NCBI RefSeq assembly: GCF_011044975.1
Contig: NZ_JAAKZV010000042.1
Location: 1-42,928 of the forward strand
Direction: 5' to 3'
Length of the DNA: 42,928 nt
DNA from: Streptomyces coryli
GTDB taxonomy: Bacteria; Actinomycetota; Actinomycetes; Streptomycetales; Streptomycetaceae
Part shown: one piece after another, positions 2,298-35,839 of the stretch
How the letters are laid out: each line of letters opens with the position of its first letter
Numbering within the stretch: the first letter of the stretch is position 1
Translations under genes and position numbers: made by a program
The notes under the pieces: model-generated
The model's input: the letters and a program-made list of their open reading frames with translations, nothing else
What the model was told of the DNA's origin: nothing
The model's database searches: none

Positions 2298-2468
2298 TCC
2301 GCCGAATCCTGCCCGTCGGGGGCCGGCACCGTCGTCTTGCCACCGCAGGGCAGGAGCGGGGGAACCAACGTTCTCCGTCGGGGACTTTCCCGACTAGGGG
2401 TGCAGCCGCACCGATTGGCGCGGCCGGGCAGCTCCAGCCCGAACCCGACAGCTCACCTCGCAGGCGCC
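2298..2468 (+). promoter_or_regulatory. c-di-AMP (ydaO/yuaA) riboswitch
   Basis: The leader carries the conserved blocks of the ydaO/yuaA aptamer in the right order: GAATCCTGCC near 2304, GGGGAACCA near 2360, GGGGTG near 2396, then GAACCCGACAGCT and ACCTCGCAGGCG closing at about 2467. The terminal helix can form between GCCG near 2301 and the AGGCG near 2463. In Streptomyces this class binds cyclic di-AMP and switches off genes for cell-wall hydrolases such as rpfA. The LysM/transglycosylase start codon follows 16 bp after the motif. I assign the class with high confidence; the exact ends and the expression platform are approximate. Confidence 0.88.
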
Positions 2469-2483
2469 GGAGAAAGTCCCAGC

Positions 2484-3386
2484 ATGGCCGGTACCGGCAC
2501 ACGCCGCGCTCCCAAACAGCACATCGCCGCCCGCCGCGTCGTCACCGTCGCGGGCATAGGCATCGCCCTCCCCGCCCTCGGCACGCTCGCGGCGTCGGCC
2601 GCCAACGCGTACACGGTGGAGAAGGGCGACACCCTCTCGGACATCGCGGCGGACCACGGGTACGGGTCCGACTGGCAGAAGTTGTACGAGGCCAATAAGA
2701 AGACGGTCGGCGACGATCCGGATCTGATCCTGCCCGGGCAGAACCTGGACATCGAGGGCCAGGCCAAGTCCGGCGCCGGTTCCGGCGGGACGGCCGATCA
2801 GACCGCGGACAAGGCCGCCGATTCCGACCAGCGTTACGTCACGCACACCGTCGCGGCCGGCGACTCGCTCGGGAAGATCGCGGAGAAGTACGACGTGCCG
2901 GGCGGCTGGCAGCGCGTCTACGCGGACAACAAGGACACGATCGGCTCGGATCCCGCCGCGCTGAAGGTGGGCACGAAGCTGAAGATCGACACCGAGGGCG
3001 GGAAGGTCGCGAACCCCGTTCAGCAGGCGTCGGATTCCTCGGGCTCGGACTCGGGCTCGGGCGGCTCCGGCTCCGGCTCCGGCTCGATCCCCACCACCGA
3101 AGCGGGCATCAAGGCCGCCGCGCAGAAGATGATGCCGGCGGATCAGTTCACCTGCTTCAGCAACATCGTGGAGCGCGAAAGCAGCTGGAACTACAAGGCG
3201 ACGAACCCGACCTCGGGCGCGTACGGCCTGGTGCAGGCGCTGCCCGGCTCCAAGATGGCGTCGGCGGGCGACGACTGGCGGACGAACCCGATCACGCAGA
3301 TCAAGTGGGGTCTGACCTACATGAACGAGCGCTACGACAGCCCGTGCGGCGCCTGGGAGTTCTGGCAGGCGAACCAGTGGTACTGA
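2484..3386 (+). CDS. Secreted LysM-domain lytic transglycosylase-like cell-wall hydrolase
   Basis: A 300-residue exported protein. The ATG at 2484 lies just after the c-di-AMP riboswitch; upstream in-frame codons overlap the aptamer and are non-coding. A signal sequence covers about residues 15-42. Two LysM peptidoglycan-binding domains follow (about 42-90 and 118-169), each with the YTVxxGDTL or HTVAAGDSL opening. A Gly/Ser linker (183-201) leads to a C-terminal lysozyme-like domain with E232 in the ERESSWN motif as probable catalytic acid and the AYGLVQALPGSKM block typical of SLT-type transglycosylases. The two cysteines C224 and C288 could form a disulfide. The likely role is peptidoglycan cleavage during growth, sporulation or germination, lowered when c-di-AMP is high. 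Confidence 0.9.
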   Translation: MAGTGTRRAPKQHIAARRVVTVAGIGIALPALGTLAASAANAYTVEKGDTLSDIAADHGYGSDWQKLYEANKKTVGDDPDLILPGQNLDIEGQAKSGAGSGGTADQTADKAADSDQRYVTHTVAAGDSLGKIAEKYDVPGGWQRVYADNKDTIGSDPAALKVGTKLKIDTEGGKVANPVQQASDSSGSDSGSGGSGSGSGSIPTTEAGIKAAAQKMMPADQFTCFSNIVERESSWNYKATNPTSGAYGLVQALPGSKMASAGDDWRTNPITQIKWGLTYMNERYDSPCGAWEFWQANQWY

Positions 3387-28383: not shown

Positions 28384-29591
28384 ACCGCACCACGCCGCGG
28401 CGCACGGTCCTGATATCCGGGGCCGGCGTCGCCGGGCCGGCCCTCGCGTACTGGCTGAACCGCCACGGATTCGCCGTCACGGTGGTCGAGAAGACGGCCG
28501 CCTTGCGCAGCGGTGGTTACCCCATCGACGTGCGCGGCACCGCGCTCGAGGTCATCCGGCGGATGGGAATCCTGCCGCGGCTGCGGGACGCGCACATCGA
28601 CTCGCGCCGCCTGACCTTCCTCGACGGGGACGGCAGCGAGATCGCCGCGCTCAACCCGCACACCGTGGCCGGCAGTGTCGCGGGACAGGATCTCGAGGTG
28701 CGACGCGGGGATCTGACCGACGCTCTGCACACGGCGGTCCGGGACGACGTGGAGTTCTTGTTCAACGACTCCATCGACACCCTCGATCAGTCCGGGCACG
28801 GGGCCGACGTCACCTTCCGCGGGGGCGGCCGGCGGACGTTCGACATCGTGATCGGCGCGGACGGGATGCACTCCCGCACCCGCGAGCTGCTGTTCGGCGC
28901 AGAAAAGCAGTTCCACCGGTACCTCGGCTACTGCTTCGCCGTGTTCACCATGCCCAACACCTTCGGGCTCTCCCACGAGGTCACGATGTGGAACACCCCC
29001 GGCAGGGCCGCGGCCCTCTACGCCGTCGGGGACAGCGACGACGTGCACGCCTTCCTGAACTTCGCCCGGCCGGCGCCGCCCCTCGACACCTTCCGGGACC
29101 CCGGCGCTCAACGGGACCTGGTCGCCAAGGTCTTCGCCGACGCGGGGTGGGAAGTCCCCGGCATGCTCGACGCGATGCACACGGCGGACGACCTGTTCTT
29201 CGACGCCGTCGGCCAGATCCGCATGCCGCGCTGGTCCAGCGGGAGGGTCGCGCTGGTGGGCGACGCCGCGTACGCGCCCTCGTTCCTCACCGGCCAGGGC
29301 ACCAGCCTCGCGCTCGTCGGCGCCTACATGCTCGCCGGTGCGCTGGCCGACCACGACGGCGATCACACCGCGGCCTTCGCGGCCTACGAGCACACCACCC
29401 GCGAGTTCGTGACCATGAACCAGGACCTGGTCGGCGAGGGCGGCGCCGCCCTCTTCCCCACCACCGCCCGGGCCCTGGAACAGCGCAACGCCAGGCTGCG
29501 CGGCCTCAGCACCATGCCGCCCGCGGAAGGCAAACCGGCGCACTCCGCCCTCACCCTGCCCGACTTCACGTCAGGCCCCCGCCAGCGGTGA
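28380..29591 (+). CDS. FAD-dependent monooxygenase (aromatic hydroxylase/TetX-like)
   Basis: A 403-residue group A flavoprotein monooxygenase. The FAD-binding GAGVAG lies at 14-19, the DG motif at 161-162 (VIGADGMHSRTRE), and the GD motif at 294-295 (VALVGDAAYAPSFLTGQG). The order matches para-hydroxybenzoate-hydroxylase-fold enzymes, including drug-inactivating TetX-type and natural-product-tailoring oxygenases. Such enzymes use NADPH and O2 to hydroxylate a substrate. It is coupled to the MFS gene by ATGA. A 62-bp gap follows before the PEP-synthase-like gene. Whether it modifies a toxin or a metabolite cannot be read from the sequence. Confidence 0.88.
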   Translation: MNRTTPRRTVLISGAGVAGPALAYWLNRHGFAVTVVEKTAALRSGGYPIDVRGTALEVIRRMGILPRLRDAHIDSRRLTFLDGDGSEIAALNPHTVAGSVAGQDLEVRRGDLTDALHTAVRDDVEFLFNDSIDTLDQSGHGADVTFRGGGRRTFDIVIGADGMHSRTRELLFGAEKQFHRYLGYCFAVFTMPNTFGLSHEVTMWNTPGRAAALYAVGDSDDVHAFLNFARPAPPLDTFRDPGAQRDLVAKVFADAGWEVPGMLDAMHTADDLFFDAVGQIRMPRWSSGRVALVGDAAYAPSFLTGQGTSLALVGAYMLAGALADHDGDHTAAFAAYEHTTREFVTMNQDLVGEGGAALFPTTARALEQRNARLRGLSTMPPAEGKPAHSALTLPDFTSGPRQR

Positions 29592-29602
29592 CGTTCCTTC
29601 GT

Positions 29603-29627
29603 CCGGGCGTCCTCGCAAGGCGCCCGG
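29603..29627 (+). repeat. Inverted repeat between the monooxygenase and PEP-synthase-like genes
   Basis: CCGGGCG (29603-29609) and CGCCCGG (29621-29627) form a 7-bp stem around an 11-base loop. It could be an attenuating hairpin for the upstream operon or an operator for the downstream gene; neither can be chosen from the sequence. Confidence 0.4.
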
Positions 29628-29653
29628 GCCCGGCGCGCCGGATGATCACAGCT

Positions 29654-32299
29654 ATGGGAAATGCGCTGGTGCTCCCCTTTGCCGAGATCACCGATGACAT
29701 GCTGCCGCTGGTCGGCGGCAAGGGTCTCAATCTCGGGCTGATGACCCGGGCCGGGCTGCCGGTCCCGGACGGCGTCTGCGTCACCACCGAGGCCTACCGG
29801 CGGGTGGCGGAGAACGCCGGCCTCGGGCCCGTACTCGACGAGCTGGCGGCGGCCGGGCCCGACGATCTGGCGCCGCTTGCCGAGCGGGCCAGGGACCTCG
29901 TCCGTAAGGCCGAGGTGCCGGCGGACATCGCGGCCGCGGTCCGGGAGACGGCCGGGCACGGGCCGGTGGCGGTACGCTCCTCCGCCACCGCCGAGGACCT
30001 GCCCACCGCCAGCTTCGCCGGCCAGCAGGACACCTACCTCAACGTCCTCGGGCCCGACGCGGTGCTGCGGGCGGTGCGCGACTGCTGGGCGTCGCTGTGG
30101 ACCGACCGGGCCGTGGCCTACCGCGCCGCGAACGGCATCGACCACGCCGCGGTGCGGCTGTGCGTCGTGGTGCAGCAGATGGTGCCGGCCGAGGTCGCCG
30201 GGGTGATGTTCACCGCGAACCCGGTCACCGGGCGCCGGCACGAGACCGTCATCGACGCCGCACCGGGACTCGGCGAATCGGTGGTCTCCGGCGCGGTCAA
30301 CCCCGATCACTTCGTGGTGGACACCGCCACCGGCCGGATCACCGAGCGGCGGGTCGCCGACCGCACCACCCTGATCCGCGGCCTGCCCGAGGGCGGCACC
30401 GAGCAGATCGCCGCGGACGCGGGCGGCGGTGCCTGCCTCACCGACGAGCAGCTGGTGGCGCTGGCCGGACTCGGCGCCCGGGTGGAGGAGCACTACGGCG
30501 CGCCGCAGGACACCGAGTGGGCGATCGACGCGGACGGCGGCCTCTGGCTGACCCAGGCCCGGCCCATCACCACGCTCTACCCGGTCCCGGCGAGCGACCT
30601 GCCGGGCCTGCGGGTGTATCTCTCGGTCAACGTCGCGCAGGGCATGTACCGGCCGTTCACCCCTATGGGCATCGAGGCCTTCGGCTTCCTGACCCGCCAG
30701 GGCAGCGGCGCCGGCGCGACCCAGAACCTGGCCGGGGCCCTGCGCGCCCCCGGCCTCGCCGTCGCCGGCCGCCGGGTCTTCGTCGACGTCACCGGGGCGG
30801 TGCGCAGCGGCGTCGGCCGCCGCGTGCTGCCGCGGCTGCTCGACGTCGGCGAAGCCCGCTCCGCCACCGTCATCCGCGGCCTGCTCGACGACCCCAGGCT
30901 GCGCCCGCAGCCCGTCTCACCGCGGGCGATCCTGCGCGCGCTGGCCCAGTCGGCGGCCGGCGGCCACCGGGTGCCGCTGCAGATCGCGCAGACGATCGCC
31001 GACCCCGCCGCCGCGCTGCGCCGGGCCCAGCGCCTCCGCGACCAGCTCGGCCGGCTGCTGCCGCTGCCCGCGGACGCCACCGCGCAGACCCGCCTCGACC
31101 ACGTCGAGCGGGTCCTCGGCCGCGAGACCTTCCCGATCGTCTACGCCACCGTGCCGGACTTCATCGCCGGTTACCTGATGCTGGGGCTGGCCCGGCTGCT
31201 GCTGCCCGACCCGGCCGACCGGGCCCGGCTGCAGAACGTGCTGCGCAGCCTGCCGCACAACCCCACCACCGAGATGGACCTCGCCCTCTGGCAGGCGGCG
31301 ACCCGGATCAAGGCGGACCCGGAGGCCGCCCGGCTCCTCCGCGACACCCCCGCGGACAACCTCGCCCGCTCGCCCCTGCCGGCGACCGTCCAGGCCGAAC
31401 TGAACGCGTTCCTCGCCGAGTACGGCCACCGCGCGGTCGCCGAGATCGACATCGGCATGCCCCGCTGGTCCGACGGCCCCGCCCACATCCTCGGCGTGCT
31501 CGCGAACTACCTGCGGCTGGACGACCCCGCCCTCGCCCCCGCCGCGCTCTTCGCGAAGGGCGCCGAGGAAGCGGACCGTACGATCGCCGAACTCGCCGCC
31601 GGGGCGGGCGGCGTGCGCGGCTCGGTGATCGGCTTCGCCCTCGGCCGCACCCGGCAGCTGGCCGGGCTGCGCGAGCTGCCGAAATTCAACCTGGTCCGGA
31701 TCTTCGCCGGACTGCGCGTCCACCTGACCGCCGTCGGCGCCGAACTCACCGGCCGCGGGGTCCTGGACCGGCCCGACGACATCTACTTCACCACCCTCGC
31801 CGAAGCCCGCGACGGACTGCGCGGCACCGATCTGAAGCCGCTGGTGGCAGAGCGCCGCGCCGATTACGAGCGCGAGCTGGGGCGTCGGCACATCCCGCGC
31901 GTGCTCCTCTCGGACGGCACCGAGCCGGAGGCGGTGGGCCTGCCCGCGGGCCCGCCGTCCGCCGCGACCGCCCCCGGAACCCTCACCGGCACGCCCGCCT
32001 CGGCCGGTACGGTCACCGGCACGGCCCGCGTCATCCACGATCCGACGGGCGCCCACCTCAACCCGGGCGAGATCCTGGTCTGCCCCTCCACCGACCCCGG
32101 CTGGACCCCGCTGTTCCTCACCGCGGGCGGCCTGGTCATGGAGATGGGCGGCGCGATCTCGCACGGCGCGGTGGTGGCCCGCGAGTACGGCATCCCCGCG
32201 GTGGTGGGAGTCGCGGGCGCGACCGAGCGCATCGAGGACGGCGCCCGCATCTCGGTGGACGGCGCGGCGGGGACGGTCACGGCTGAGCCCGGCGACTGA
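29654..32299 (+). CDS. PEP synthase / rifampin phosphotransferase-like dikinase
   Basis: An 881-residue protein with the three-part architecture of PEP synthase and rifampin phosphotransferase (Rph). An ATP-grasp PPDK N-terminal domain covers about 1-315 (LVGGKGLNLGLM; VAVRSSATAEDLP; GVMFTANPVTGRR; TEWAIDADGGLWLTQARPI). A central substrate domain covers about 320-760. The swivelling phosphohistidine domain covers about 780-881, with the GGAISHGAVVAREYGIPAV motif and catalytic H837. It moves a phosphate from ATP through His to an acceptor. It lacks the C-terminal TIM-barrel of true PEP synthase, so Rph-like drug or metabolite phosphorylation is more likely. I use ATG 29654; ATG 29642 is in frame. 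Confidence 0.82.
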   Translation: MGNALVLPFAEITDDMLPLVGGKGLNLGLMTRAGLPVPDGVCVTTEAYRRVAENAGLGPVLDELAAAGPDDLAPLAERARDLVRKAEVPADIAAAVRETAGHGPVAVRSSATAEDLPTASFAGQQDTYLNVLGPDAVLRAVRDCWASLWTDRAVAYRAANGIDHAAVRLCVVVQQMVPAEVAGVMFTANPVTGRRHETVIDAAPGLGESVVSGAVNPDHFVVDTATGRITERRVADRTTLIRGLPEGGTEQIAADAGGGACLTDEQLVALAGLGARVEEHYGAPQDTEWAIDADGGLWLTQARPITTLYPVPASDLPGLRVYLSVNVAQGMYRPFTPMGIEAFGFLTRQGSGAGATQNLAGALRAPGLAVAGRRVFVDVTGAVRSGVGRRVLPRLLDVGEARSATVIRGLLDDPRLRPQPVSPRAILRALAQSAAGGHRVPLQIAQTIADPAAALRRAQRLRDQLGRLLPLPADATAQTRLDHVERVLGRETFPIVYATVPDFIAGYLMLGLARLLLPDPADRARLQNVLRSLPHNPTTEMDLALWQAATRIKADPEAARLLRDTPADNLARSPLPATVQAELNAFLAEYGHRAVAEIDIGMPRWSDGPAHILGVLANYLRLDDPALAPAALFAKGAEEADRTIAELAAGAGGVRGSVIGFALGRTRQLAGLRELPKFNLVRIFAGLRVHLTAVGAELTGRGVLDRPDDIYFTTLAEARDGLRGTDLKPLVAERRADYERELGRRHIPRVLLSDGTEPEAVGLPAGPPSAATAPGTLTGTPASAGTVTGTARVIHDPTGAHLNPGEILVCPSTDPGWTPLFLTAGGLVMEMGGAISHGAVVAREYGIPAVVGVAGATERIEDGARISVDGAAGTVTAEPGD

Positions 32300-32345
32300 T
32301 CCGCATCCCTAATTCCGATAAAGTCGGGCACATTACGCAAACCGC

Positions 32346-32366
32346 CCGAAGGATTTCGGATCGAAA
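32346..32366 (+). promoter_or_regulatory. Two mutually exclusive hairpins in the leader of the Cys-rich gene
   Basis: CCGAA (32346-32350) pairs with TTCGG (32355-32359), while TTTCG (32354-32358) pairs with CGAAA (32362-32366). The two stems share bases and cannot coexist. The second one buries the start of the AAAGG ribosome-binding site 8-12 bp ahead of the ATG. This could be an operator dyad or a small RNA switch; the evidence is base pairing only. Confidence 0.4.
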
Positions 32367-32375
32367 GGCTCCACC

Positions 32376-32576
32376 ATGACCACCGCCACGGCCACCTGCG
32401 CCTGTGCCGACTGCGCCGGCGACGTCTGCGCCAACTGCACCTGTACGAACTGCGCCTGCGCCTCGTGCGCCCACAAGGCGACCGAACTGGCCACCTGCTC
32501 GTGCACCGACTGCGGCGGCGACCTGTGCGCCACCTGCACCTGCTCCTCCTGCTCGTGCCGGACCTGCCACCACTGA
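32376..32576 (+). CDS. Duplicated Cys-rich, metallothionein-like protein (18 Cys in 66 residues)
   Basis: A 66-residue protein with cysteines at 8, 10, 13, 18, 21, 23, 26, 28 and 31, and again at 41, 43, 46, 51, 54, 56, 59, 61 and 64. Every position in the second set is exactly 33 higher, so the protein is a tandem duplication of a nine-Cys module (CxCx2Cx4Cx2CxCx2CxCx2C). Histidines at 33, 65 and 66 add ligands. There are no aromatic residues, and Ala, Thr, Ser, Asp fill the gaps, all features of metallothioneins. The chain is cytoplasmic (no signal). It does not look like mycobacterial MymT or cyanobacterial SmtA. The ribosome-binding site AAAGG and start ATG 32376 are good. Copper or zinc buffering is the likely role; which metal is unknown. 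Confidence 0.85.
   Translation: MTTATATCACADCAGDVCANCTCTNCACASCAHKATELATCSCTDCGGDLCATCTCSSCSCRTCHH
32397..32567 (+). repeat. 99-nt-period internal duplication inside the Cys-rich gene
   Basis: The nine-cysteine module is encoded at 32397-32468 and again at 32496-32567, offset by exactly 99 nt. The DNA copies have diverged more than the Cys spacing, which is fully conserved, so the cysteine framework has been kept by selection. Confidence 0.8.
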
Positions 32577-32658: not shown

Positions 32659-33279
32659 CTACGCGGACGGCGCCGTACCGCCGCCGGCGGACTCCGCCTC
32701 CCGCAGCAGCGCCGTCAGGTCCGCCCGCGCCCTGGCCACCCGGGAGCGCACGGTGCCCAGCGGGCAGCCGAGCACCGCGGCGGCCCGCTCGTACGGCAGC
32801 CCGGCCAGCTGCGTGAGGACGAAGGCCTCGCGGCGCGAGGCGTTCAGCGCCCGCAGCAGTTCCAGCAGCGCCACCCGCTCCTCGAAGCCGGGCAGTCCGC
32901 ACGGCTGGGACCGCTCGGCGGCCGTCTGCCAGTCGCAGGCGGAGGCGATCCGCGGGCGCGCCGCCGTGTGCCGGTAGCGGTCCACCACCACCCGGCGGGC
33001 GATCGACAGCAGCCAGGTGCGGGCGCACGAGCGGCCCGCGAACCGCGGCAGCCCGGTGAGCGCCCGCAGATACGTCTCCTGGGTCAGGTCGTCGGCACCG
33101 TGCAGGTCGGCGCTGAGGTGGGCGACGAACCGCCACACATCGCGCTGGGTGGCGCGGACGAACCGGTCCACCGCCTCCGGGTCGCCGCTCCGGGCGGCCA
33201 GCGCCCAGGCGGTCACTTCGGTGTCGTTATGTCGTCTTGCCGATGGGCCGCGCGGGGCCTGGGTCAGGGCAGGAGTCAT
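32659..33279 (-). CDS. ECF-family RNA polymerase sigma factor
   Basis: A 206-residue extracytoplasmic-function sigma factor with region 2 (about 28-100; DLHGADDLTQETYLRAL then RTWLLSIARRVVVDRYR) and region 4 (about 140-195; LAGLPYERAAAVLGCPLGTVRSRVARAR). ATG 33279 has AAGGA 9 bp upstream; the frame is open further upstream, but that stretch lacks coding character. Several cysteines are present, including ones in the inter-domain linker (ASACDW, QPCGLPG) and in region 4. No anti-sigma gene lies next to it. It is convergent with the Cys-rich gene and codirectional with a His-rich membrane gene 287 bp upstream, consistent with a role in metal or redox stress; that is inference. Confidence 0.9.
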   Translation of the reverse strand: MTPALTQAPRGPSARRHNDTEVTAWALAARSGDPEAVDRFVRATQRDVWRFVAHLSADLHGADDLTQETYLRALTGLPRFAGRSCARTWLLSIARRVVVDRYRHTAARPRIASACDWQTAAERSQPCGLPGFEERVALLELLRALNASRREAFVLTQLAGLPYERAAAVLGCPLGTVRSRVARARADLTALLREAESAGGGTAPSA

Positions 33280-33566
33280 CGTGTCGTGTCCTTCGCACGC
33301 GGGCAGACCGCGCCGCAGCGGACGCGGGCCTGCCGGGGAAGCGGCGTCGCGGGCGCGCCGGGCCCGTAGGGGCGTCGACGGCATCGCGGGCCGCGAGTTG
33401 GTGGGGGCGGCGCGCGGACGAGCGCGCCGGACCGCGGCGCCGCCGCCGGGTGCCAGACCCGGGTGCGGCGCCGTACTGGCACTGCCGGCTCCCACGAAGT
33501 GCGGGCAAGCCGGGCCGCCGCCGGTCGCAGCGACGCGATAGGCGGTCGCCGGACAGCGGTCGGTGG

Positions 33567-34199
33567 TCAGTGCAGAGCGAAGAACGCGGCAGGCGGGCCG
33601 CGGCGGGAGACGACGTACTGCAGCAGCGGCTCGCGCGGCCGCGCCGGCGGCTCGGCGCCGACGGCCGGCGACGGCCGCGACGGAGCGGATACGACCCCGG
33701 CGAGCACCCGGCGGGCCAGCCGCAGCGGCACGAAGACGAAGGCGGCCAGCGCCCGGCCGGTGCGGTACGCCGCCGCCTCACCGCGCCACAGCCACAGCCC
33801 GCACACCAGGGCGGCGAGCGCGTGCGCCGCGACCATGCCGGGCGAACTGCCGTGCCCGGCATGGGCCATGGCGCCCTCGGCCGCGGCGTGCCCGGCGTGT
33901 GGGGGCAGCTGTCCGGCGGGCTCCGGCGGCGTCGCCAGCCACTGCGCCCCGGTGAACACCCCGTGCAGCGCCAGCTGCGCCACCACCGTGGCGCCGGTGA
34001 CCGCGACCGCCCCGCGCTCGCGGCCGGTCAGCCACCACGCGGCGGCGGTGGTCGCCGCGAACGCGTACGCCACGCCCCACGCGGGCAGCGGACGCCCGGA
34101 CATGAGCGCGTGGCCCAGACCCGTGGCCACTACACACACGGCCGCGAAGACCGCGGCGCGCGCGATGCGGAAGGCGGGCCCCGAGGTCATGGCGGTCAT
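33567..34199 (-). CDS. His-rich integral membrane protein, possible metal-related
   Basis: A 210-residue protein with four hydrophobic segments (about 12-33, 41-58, 63-84, 121-140) and perhaps a fifth near 150-170. The loop between helices 3 and 4 contains a His/Met-rich stretch with histidines at 101, 104, 113 and 116 in HAGH-type pairs, a pattern used for copper or other metal binding. I do not recognise a named family. It is divergent from the PepSY protein gene, which carries a very similar HxxH-rich loop, so the two probably act together at the membrane. ATG 34199 is used; ATG 34190 is also in frame. Confidence 0.75.
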   Translation of the reverse strand: MTAMTSGPAFRIARAAVFAAVCVVATGLGHALMSGRPLPAWGVAYAFAATTAAAWWLTGRERGAVAVTGATVVAQLALHGVFTGAQWLATPPEPAGQLPPHAGHAAAEGAMAHAGHGSSPGMVAAHALAALVCGLWLWRGEAAAYRTGRALAAFVFVPLRLARRVLAGVVSAPSRPSPAVGAEPPARPREPLLQYVVSRRGPPAAFFALH

Positions 34200-34384
34200 G
34201 GTGCCAGCCGGCTCCCGTTCCGACGAGGGTGGGTGATCGATGCCTCATGAACACTTCCCGCGCGTGTGCTCCGGCTCACCCGCAGATCCCGGGAACTCGC
34301 ACGGCCCTTCGCCCGACTCCCTGAATGCCGCGGTCGCCGCGCCCGCGGCAGGTCCCTTCCGTCCCCGCCCCAGGAGAGCCGCCG
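34200..34384. promoter_or_regulatory. Divergent promoter region of the His-rich and PepSY genes
   Basis: The 185-bp gap must hold both promoters. A GGGAAC at 34291-34296 resembles the -35 of ECF sigma promoters, with a CGACTC 17 bp downstream as a poor -10. I give this only low weight; no other element stands out. Confidence 0.3.
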
Positions 34385-35839
34385 ATGTCCGTCGAACCAC
34401 CGCCGCCCGCCGCGCCGGAGGCCCCGCCCGCCGCTGCCGCACCTCCGTCACCGGCCCGCCGGGCCACCTGGTCCGCGCTGCGCCCGCTGGTGCTCCGGCT
34501 GCACTTCTACGCCGGGCTGATCGTCGCTCCGTTCCTGCTCATTGCCGCCGTGACCGGGCTGCTGTACGCCGCGTCGTACCAGATCGAGAAGGTCGTCTAC
34601 GACCACGAGCTGCGGGTGCCGGCCGGCGAGCGCGAGCTGCCGCTGGCCGTGCAGATCGCGGCCGCCCGCGAGGCGTATCCGGACGGCGAGGTCAGCGGGG
34701 TGCGCCCGGCCCCGGAGCCGGGCGACACCACCCGGGTGCTGCTCGCCGGCGCCCCGGGGGTGCCCGAGGACCGCAGCCTCGCGGTGTTCGTGAACCCGCA
34801 CGACGGCGAGGTGCGCGGCGCGCTCGAGCAGTACGGCTCCACCGGCGCCCTGCCCGTACGCGCCTGGATCTCCGAGCTGCACCGCAGCCTGCACCTCGGC
34901 GAGACCGGCCGGCTCTACAGCGAGCTGGCCGCCAGCTGGCTGTGGGTGATCACCGGGGCCGGCCTGGTGCTCTGGCTGGCCCGCCGCCGGGGACGCGGGA
35001 AGCTGCGCTCCGCCACGCTGCCCGACCGCAGTGCCACCGGCCGGAAGCGCACCATGAGCCTGCACGCCTCGGTCGGCGTGTGGGCGGCGGCCGGCTTGTT
35101 CTTCCTGTCCGCGACGGGCCTGACCTGGTCCACGTACGCAGGTGAATCCGTAACGAAACTGCGCGAATCCCTCGGCCAGCTGACGCCGGAGGTCAACGCC
35201 GCCGTCGCCGGCGGCGCCCAGGCCCCCGCCGGCGACCACGCGGAACACGGCGGCCACGGCTCGCACGGCGCGAACGCGCAGCACGCGGTCGGCGCCGCCG
35301 AAGCGCTGCGCATCGCCCGCGCCCACGGCATCGGCGACCCGGCCGAGGTGACGCTGCCCGCGGACGCCTCCTCCGGCTACGTCGTCAAGGAGGTCCAGCG
35401 GGCCTGGCCGGTGAAGCAGGACGCCGTCACCATCCACCCGGAGTCCGGCAAGGTCACCAGCAGCCTGCCCTTCGCCGACTACCCGATGCTCGCAAAGCTC
35501 ACCAACTGGGGCATCGCCCTGCACATGGGCATCCTCTTCGGCCTCGTCAACCAAATCGCCCTGGCGGCCCTGATGGTCGCCCTGATCCTGCTCATCGTCT
35601 GGGGCTATCGCATGTGGTGGCAGCGCGGCCGCGACACCGCCTTCGGCCGCCCGATGCCGCGCGGGGCGTGGCAGGCGGTGCCGTGGTACGTACTGGCACC
35701 GCTGGCGGGCGCGACCGCCATGCTCGGCTGGTATCTCCCGCTCCTCGGCATCCCGCTCCTCGCCTTCCTGGCCGCGGACGCCGCCTACGGGGTGTACGCC
35801 CGCCGGCGCCGCGACACCCGGGAGGCGGCGGCAGGGTGA
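34385..35839 (+). CDS. PepSY-associated membrane protein with a His-rich loop
   Basis: A 484-residue PepSY_TM protein. Helix 1 (about 36-62) has the family LHFYAGLIVAPF motif, and a PepSY domain lies in the first extracytoplasmic loop. ISELHRSLHLGETGR (162-176) and helices near 180-200 and 228-250 follow. A second loop is His-rich, with histidines at 285, 288, 291, 294 and 300. A second PepSY segment and three C-terminal helices end the chain. The Pro/Ala-rich N-terminus is cytoplasmic. ATG 34385 has AGGAGAG upstream. Family members are linked to siderophore reduction and copper handling. Conserved intramembrane His residues suggest heme binding. Confidence 0.88.
   Translation: MSVEPPPPAAPEAPPAAAAPPSPARRATWSALRPLVLRLHFYAGLIVAPFLLIAAVTGLLYAASYQIEKVVYDHELRVPAGERELPLAVQIAAAREAYPDGEVSGVRPAPEPGDTTRVLLAGAPGVPEDRSLAVFVNPHDGEVRGALEQYGSTGALPVRAWISELHRSLHLGETGRLYSELAASWLWVITGAGLVLWLARRRGRGKLRSATLPDRSATGRKRTMSLHASVGVWAAAGLFFLSATGLTWSTYAGESVTKLRESLGQLTPEVNAAVAGGAQAPAGDHAEHGGHGSHGANAQHAVGAAEALRIARAHGIGDPAEVTLPADASSGYVVKEVQRAWPVKQDAVTIHPESGKVTSSLPFADYPMLAKLTNWGIALHMGILFGLVNQIALAALMVALILLIVWGYRMWWQRGRDTAFGRPMPRGAWQAVPWYVLAPLAGATAMLGWYLPLLGIPLLAFLAADAAYGVYARRRRDTREAAAG

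Follow-up and report, generated by a model that had tools for sequence, protein, structure and literature searches.

A candidate two-module metallothionein of Streptomyces coryli resembles an actinobacterial family linked to zinc by gene context

Does a short, cysteine-rich open reading frame in Streptomyces coryli encode a metallothionein and, if so, which metal would it handle? The frame lies at 32376-32576 (+) of the 42,928-nucleotide stretch analysed here (the window), and the original prediction read it as a candidate new metallothionein made of two nine-cysteine modules. Its translation, MTTATATCACADCAGDVCANCTCTNCACASCAHKATELATCSCTDCGGDLCATCTCSSCSCRTCHH, bears out the description behind that reading: there are 66 residues with 18 Cys, arranged as CxCx2Cx4Cx2CxCx2CxCx2C twice with an exact offset of +33 (Cys 8, 10, 13, 18, 21, 23, 26, 28 and 31, then Cys 41, 43, 46, 51, 54, 56, 59, 61 and 64), together with His33, His65 and His66 and not one F, W or Y. 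Small size, 18 of 66 residues as Cys in CxC and CxxC spacings and the lack of F, W and Y are the sequence characters of the metallothionein class. The features of the frame are as follows.

32376..32576, + strand: metallothionein-like two-module protein, 66 aa, 18 Cys, resembling the Cys domains of relatives in 20 genomes
32397..32474, + strand: module 1, C8-C31 plus CxH (H33), CACADCAGDVCANCTCTNCACASCAH
32475..32495, + strand: linker KATELAT, five residues longer than in the aligned relatives (13-row alignment)
32496..32573, + strand: module 2, C41-C64 plus CxH (H66), CSCTDCGGDLCATCTCSSCSCRTCHH

The duplicated nine-Cys framework is real and not a matter of chance. A DNA pattern of nine TGY codons matched the window twice, both times inside this frame, and had no match in 100 dinucleotide shuffles used as a control for the window; permuting the residues of the protein 300,000 times did not produce even a single copy of the framework. 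Over the compared non-Cys positions the two modules are 31% identical to each other and 24-40% identical to the modules of relatives, so the duplication does not look recent, and a recent duplication was rejected as its origin.

The frame also carries coding signals. GC3 is 0.98 over the 48 non-Cys codons, similar to that of likely genes in this GC-rich window, and TGC serves as 16 of the 18 Cys codons. The frame occupies a gap between an upstream gene that ends at 32299 (+) and a next gene that ends at 32659 (-), and two features precede it.

32363..32368, + strand: ribosome-binding-site-like GAAAGG, seven bases 5' of the ATG (from the sequence)
32300..32375, + strand: upstream intergenic stretch, with no match to the one sigma-70-type consensus scanned, nor a good fit to the motif found 5' of the relatives

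That scan, with its lack of a promoter-like match, is what speaks for an untranslated or decaying frame, or for a thiol redox buffer that has no part in metal handling. The intact frame, its strong codon bias and its conservation in relatives weigh against this explanation, which we consider highly improbable.

Library searches placed the protein in no known family. Pfam-A and NCBIfam returned no family for it at E values up to 10, and no match for two relatives tested at E up to 1; PHROGs and PADLOC gave none at E up to 1, and plasmid and phage collections none at E up to 10. Against PDB sequences a profile search gave four hits, the best at E 0.24 and none of them a metallothionein, and a single-sequence search gave nothing significant (best E 0.77). 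An AlphaFold model from a two-row alignment (mean pLDDT 49, pTM 0.33) has a like strand pattern in both halves and is uninformative beyond both halves being predicted alike. No description of a family with nine Cys and a terminal CxH turned up in the literature searched, as judged on titles and abstract openings.

Relatives were found in genome collections. A scan of 84,980 species with six short query peptides, which detects close relatives only, gave a single one, in a metagenome-assembled Actinomycetota genome (L001): in its 107-aa frame two Cys modules come after a His-rich stretch (HTHGPSCGH...DYIHDGHSHREHEGHYDEC), and the start codon of the frame overlaps the stop codon of a gene of the ArsR family. 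A two-row profile picked out 6 of 396 genomes from the phylum; inspection left two as real (G001 and G215), and the other four were rejected as loci without a Cys module. Better profiles matched 12 of 149 genomes from the family of G215, 6 of 49 from its genus (all six already counted) and, in a sample drawn across the class, 13 of 394, which added 7 new genomes. Altogether the relatives come from 20 distinct actinobacterial genomes, with two modules in 19 and a single module in one (L164).

Every relative's module, in 20 of 20, follows CxCx2Cx3-5Cx2CxCx2CxCx2CxH, the loop being of three to five residues, and the window protein fits this pattern twice, with His33 and His66 as its CxH histidines. 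A 13-row alignment of the Cys domains, the window protein included, shows no variation at any of the 18 Cys or at either CxH His (L133, a near-repeat of L132, was left out). The relatives thus resemble it in their Cys modules, their CxH ends and the size of the Cys part. They differ in having a His-rich N-terminal module of about 50 aa (HTHGPxCGH...GHYDE), present in 20 of 20 and absent from the window protein, and in a shorter linker; the window locus in turn lacks the upstream motif of the relatives and, among the frames scanned, an adjacent SmtB-type gene. Of the 21 proteins seen, the window protein alone has no His module.

A conserved metallothionein-like family without a model in Pfam or NCBIfam is real, and the search for homologues with the nine-Cys module, whose failure would have told against the original prediction, found the same Cys spacing in 20 genomes. 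The predicted unit needs amending: the nine-Cys spacing recurs in the relatives, but what is conserved is nine Cys plus CxH. Nor does the protein stand alone: it is probably a member, lacking the His module, of a wider family.

How far does this kinship reach beyond the spacing itself? Against a leave-one-out profile built from 12 relatives, the window protein excluded, it scores 38.6 bits, whereas the best of 1000 full shuffles reached -0.3 bits. When only the Cys were held in place the best of 2000 shuffles rose to 30.7 bits, and when Cys and His were both held the best of 2000 came to 37.4 bits. Because shuffles with these positions fixed nearly match the window score, most of the profile signal is the Cys/His framework itself. 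This bears on a different explanation, that the frame encodes an unrelated Cys-rich protein whose similar spacing arose by local repeat expansion and whose metal role would be shared by convergence only. CxC and CxxC spacings can recur, as in viral contigs that hold single modules with the same spacing, of which the four scored reach no more than 5-10 bits against the family profile. The shuffles with Cys and His fixed come close, and switching off the null2 composition correction lets 17 of the 2000 shuffles with Cys fixed and 12 of the 2000 with Cys and His fixed reach the window score. Yet the standard score exceeds those of all 2000 shuffles of either kind, and the CxH ends, CSC and DxCA are common to the window protein and the three-row family set. 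We regard convergence as unlikely, and homology to the family beyond the Cys and His positions as likely, though not certain, from these sequence comparisons.

The viral modules came from a pattern search of IMG/VR that returned at least 120 loci; most of the translated matches listed were rejected because they read simple repeats as poly-Cys, and viral contigs scanned with the three-row alignment gave no match. In four contigs (L025:6281-7096, L040:1259-2524, L047:8268-9566 and L125:6805-8031) a metallothionein-like module, CxCxCx2Cx4Cx2CxCx2CxCx2CxC, sits 3-25 residues past a matched head maturation protease domain, for which the best PHROGs are phrog_94, phrog_80 and, twice, phrog_53. Such a module might perhaps serve metal loading or disulfide control in capsid assembly; phage records searched for it gave no match. 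Small viral-contig frames of 42-71 codons from stop to stop (L080, L101, L107, L108 and L111) carry the same 11-Cys module, and PHROGs gave no match for those of L101, L107, L108 and L111.

Gene context links the family of the relatives to zinc. In 16 of their 20 loci a gene encoding the SmtB alpha5 zinc-site motif DxHx10HxxE directly adjoins upstream, its end falling anywhere from 119 bases before the metallothionein start to 17 bases inside it, and in ten of these 16 the two genes share a 4-base ATGA overlap. Two products of such genes tested in Pfam are HTH_5 ArsR-family proteins, and one tested in NCBIfam falls above cut-off in an ArsR/SmtB metalloregulator subfamily. In 4 of 20 loci (L155, L167, L169 and L170) ABC-3 permease genes occur upstream at a distance of up to about 3.5 kb, with ZnuA confirmed in three of the four; CobW-type GTPase genes, confirmed beside two loci, lie downstream in L127/L144 and in L145. 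An upstream motif, TTGACATGCA...CATATAA, made by eye and without a control, is found in 14 of 20 loci when up to 7 of 20 mismatches are allowed. It was rejected as an operator of the window gene, where its best match has 10 of 20 mismatches.

According to PMC8790569, SmtB-type repressors with the motif DxHx10Hx2E control cyanobacterial metallothioneins, and PMC9337993 places a marine Synechococcus metallothionein under Zur together with znuABC, in zinc storage. SmtB-type control of the relatives is likely, and the link of the family to zinc is supported by context, with sensors that could answer other metals too. The metallothionein reading of the window protein, which stays a candidate, gains strength from twenty relatives that share its modules and in most cases neighbour an SmtB-type regulator.

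The window itself has a different neighbourhood. Among the 19 of its frames scanned in Pfam, a subset, no ArsR, Znu or CobW protein was found, nor was a copper gene identified. Upstream, 28988-32299 encodes a PEP-utilising enzyme with PPDK_N and mobile domains, whose best NCBIfam matches, PEP synthase and rifamycin-inactivating phosphotransferase, are both below cut-off; a FAD monooxygenase gene and an MFS gene precede it. Downstream, 32659-35839 holds an ECF sigma gene, a gene for a 210-aa protein that matches no family and contains a His-rich stretch, and one for a PepSY_TM protein. Farther away, a c-di-AMP riboswitch (ydaO/yuaA leader, 62.9 bits) at 2328-2481 overlaps the start of the frame 2337-3386.

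These surroundings leave room for a copper(I) metallothionein, in which the form with two Cys modules would handle Cu(I), the ECF sigma factor and PepSY membrane protein encoded nearby perhaps taking part. The window gene is without every zinc-linked feature of its relatives, and 18 Cys in 66 residues would suit Cu(I). The two best NCBIfam matches of the sigma gene, both below cut-off, are PRK12535 and SigC, and mycobacterial SigC is linked to copper supply in the abstract of PMC7924339. Against this, the sigma gene lies on the opposite strand and is convergent with the metallothionein-like gene, the scanned frames yielded no copper gene, and similar Cys modules in the relatives are tied to zinc by context. 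We hold a copper role to be doubtful, if a real possibility; it overlaps in part with the zinc reading, and the likelihoods given to the two do not sum to one.

Returning to that zinc reading, the product of the gene is probably a small metallothionein of the cytosol, in which two Cys9His clusters would buffer or store zinc, or bind Cd or Cu(I). Nine-Cys clusters of known metallothioneins hold about three divalent ions. The nine Cys and single His of a module fit a thiolate cluster of three metals, and two clusters would thus take up about six divalent ions. By this analogy each half, with its nine Cys and terminal CxH, would fold around one metal-thiolate cluster of some three divalent ions, giving six per protein, or more if the metal were Cu(I). 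Its task would be to buffer or store zinc, with Cd or Cu(I) bound when these intrude. We infer zinc as the native metal, the number of clusters, the storage role and the cytosolic location; the window protein would also keep the role of its relatives despite lacking their His module and adjacent regulator.

Cys-form relatives were absent from two draws of probable Streptomycetaceae genomes (0 of 150 and 0 of 394), which may overlap and have no positive control within that family. The family label is probable from matches of two of its genomes to Streptomyces and Embleya records. The His module, by contrast with the Cys form, matched 41 of 150 probable Streptomycetaceae genomes, none of the 41 having fewer than two matches. 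Together these counts suggest a modular His/Cys family. In ten fetched loci the His-module copies are in tandem: nine loci have both in a single frame, and L177 splits them between two. These loci (L172-L181, probable Streptomycetaceae) thus encode two tandem His-rich modules, about 100 aa where they are in one frame, and roughly 3 kb fetched around them contained no gene with the alpha5 motif.

The module also occurs by itself, on Citricoccus and Rhodococcus plasmids (L182:2504-2659, 51 codons, and L183:2492-2641, 49 codons), in both cases with a recombinase gene as the upstream neighbour. Both genes are annotated 'zinc transporter permease', a name found on 4 of 12 matched plasmid records. 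A soluble-looking, His-rich peptide of 49 or 51 codons is unlikely to be a permease, and the label is apparently a misannotation.

The arrangements seen are the His module by itself in two plasmid records (49 and 51 aa), His-His in probable Streptomycetaceae, His-Cys, His-Cys-Cys, in most cases with an SmtB-type gene in front, and Cys-Cys in the window. We lean slightly towards the view that actinobacterial metal-binding proteins are built from interchangeable His-rich and Cys9-CxH cassettes, the choice of which would tune metal preference and affinity. If so, the cassette series would offer a natural comparison of Cys and His metal storage within one family.

To our knowledge few bacterial metallothionein families have been described. 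The one considered here has no Pfam or NCBIfam model, is connected to zinc sensing through its gene context and, outside the window, joins repeated modules to a His-rich cassette; it could provide a simple system for testing how metal choice depends on Cys and His cassettes, and recognizing it would correct the doubtful 'zinc transporter permease' annotation. Among known systems, MymT of Mycobacterium tuberculosis is likewise actinobacterial and Cys-rich, and according to the original prediction has a different, shorter Cys pattern. SmtA, BmtA and NmtA make up a cyanobacterial and Pseudomonas grouping of metallothioneins. They too are small and Cys-rich with His, and the SmtB-type control documented there is likely for the relatives; the window protein differs from them in its two repeated modules and in having no Pfam or NCBIfam match. 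The bacterial metallothioneins studied in PMC10612145 are said there to contain a GATA-type zinc-finger fold, and the paper also mentions a copper metallothionein with a motif of its own. Two older papers, known by title through their citation in PMC4531530, concern predicted actinobacterial 'metallothioneins and metallohistins' (Schmidt et al. 2010) and a Streptomyces gene with a 'metallothionein-like domain' (Taguchi et al. 1998). The proteins of both may include ones of the present kind, in which case the family would already be partly in print. Finally, a passage of PMC4531530 describes a possible Frankia metallothionein in which 3 or 4 CXXC motifs go together with multiple histidines: it shares with the window protein an actinobacterial origin and a mixture of Cys and His, and is set apart, by that description, through its fewer Cys motifs.
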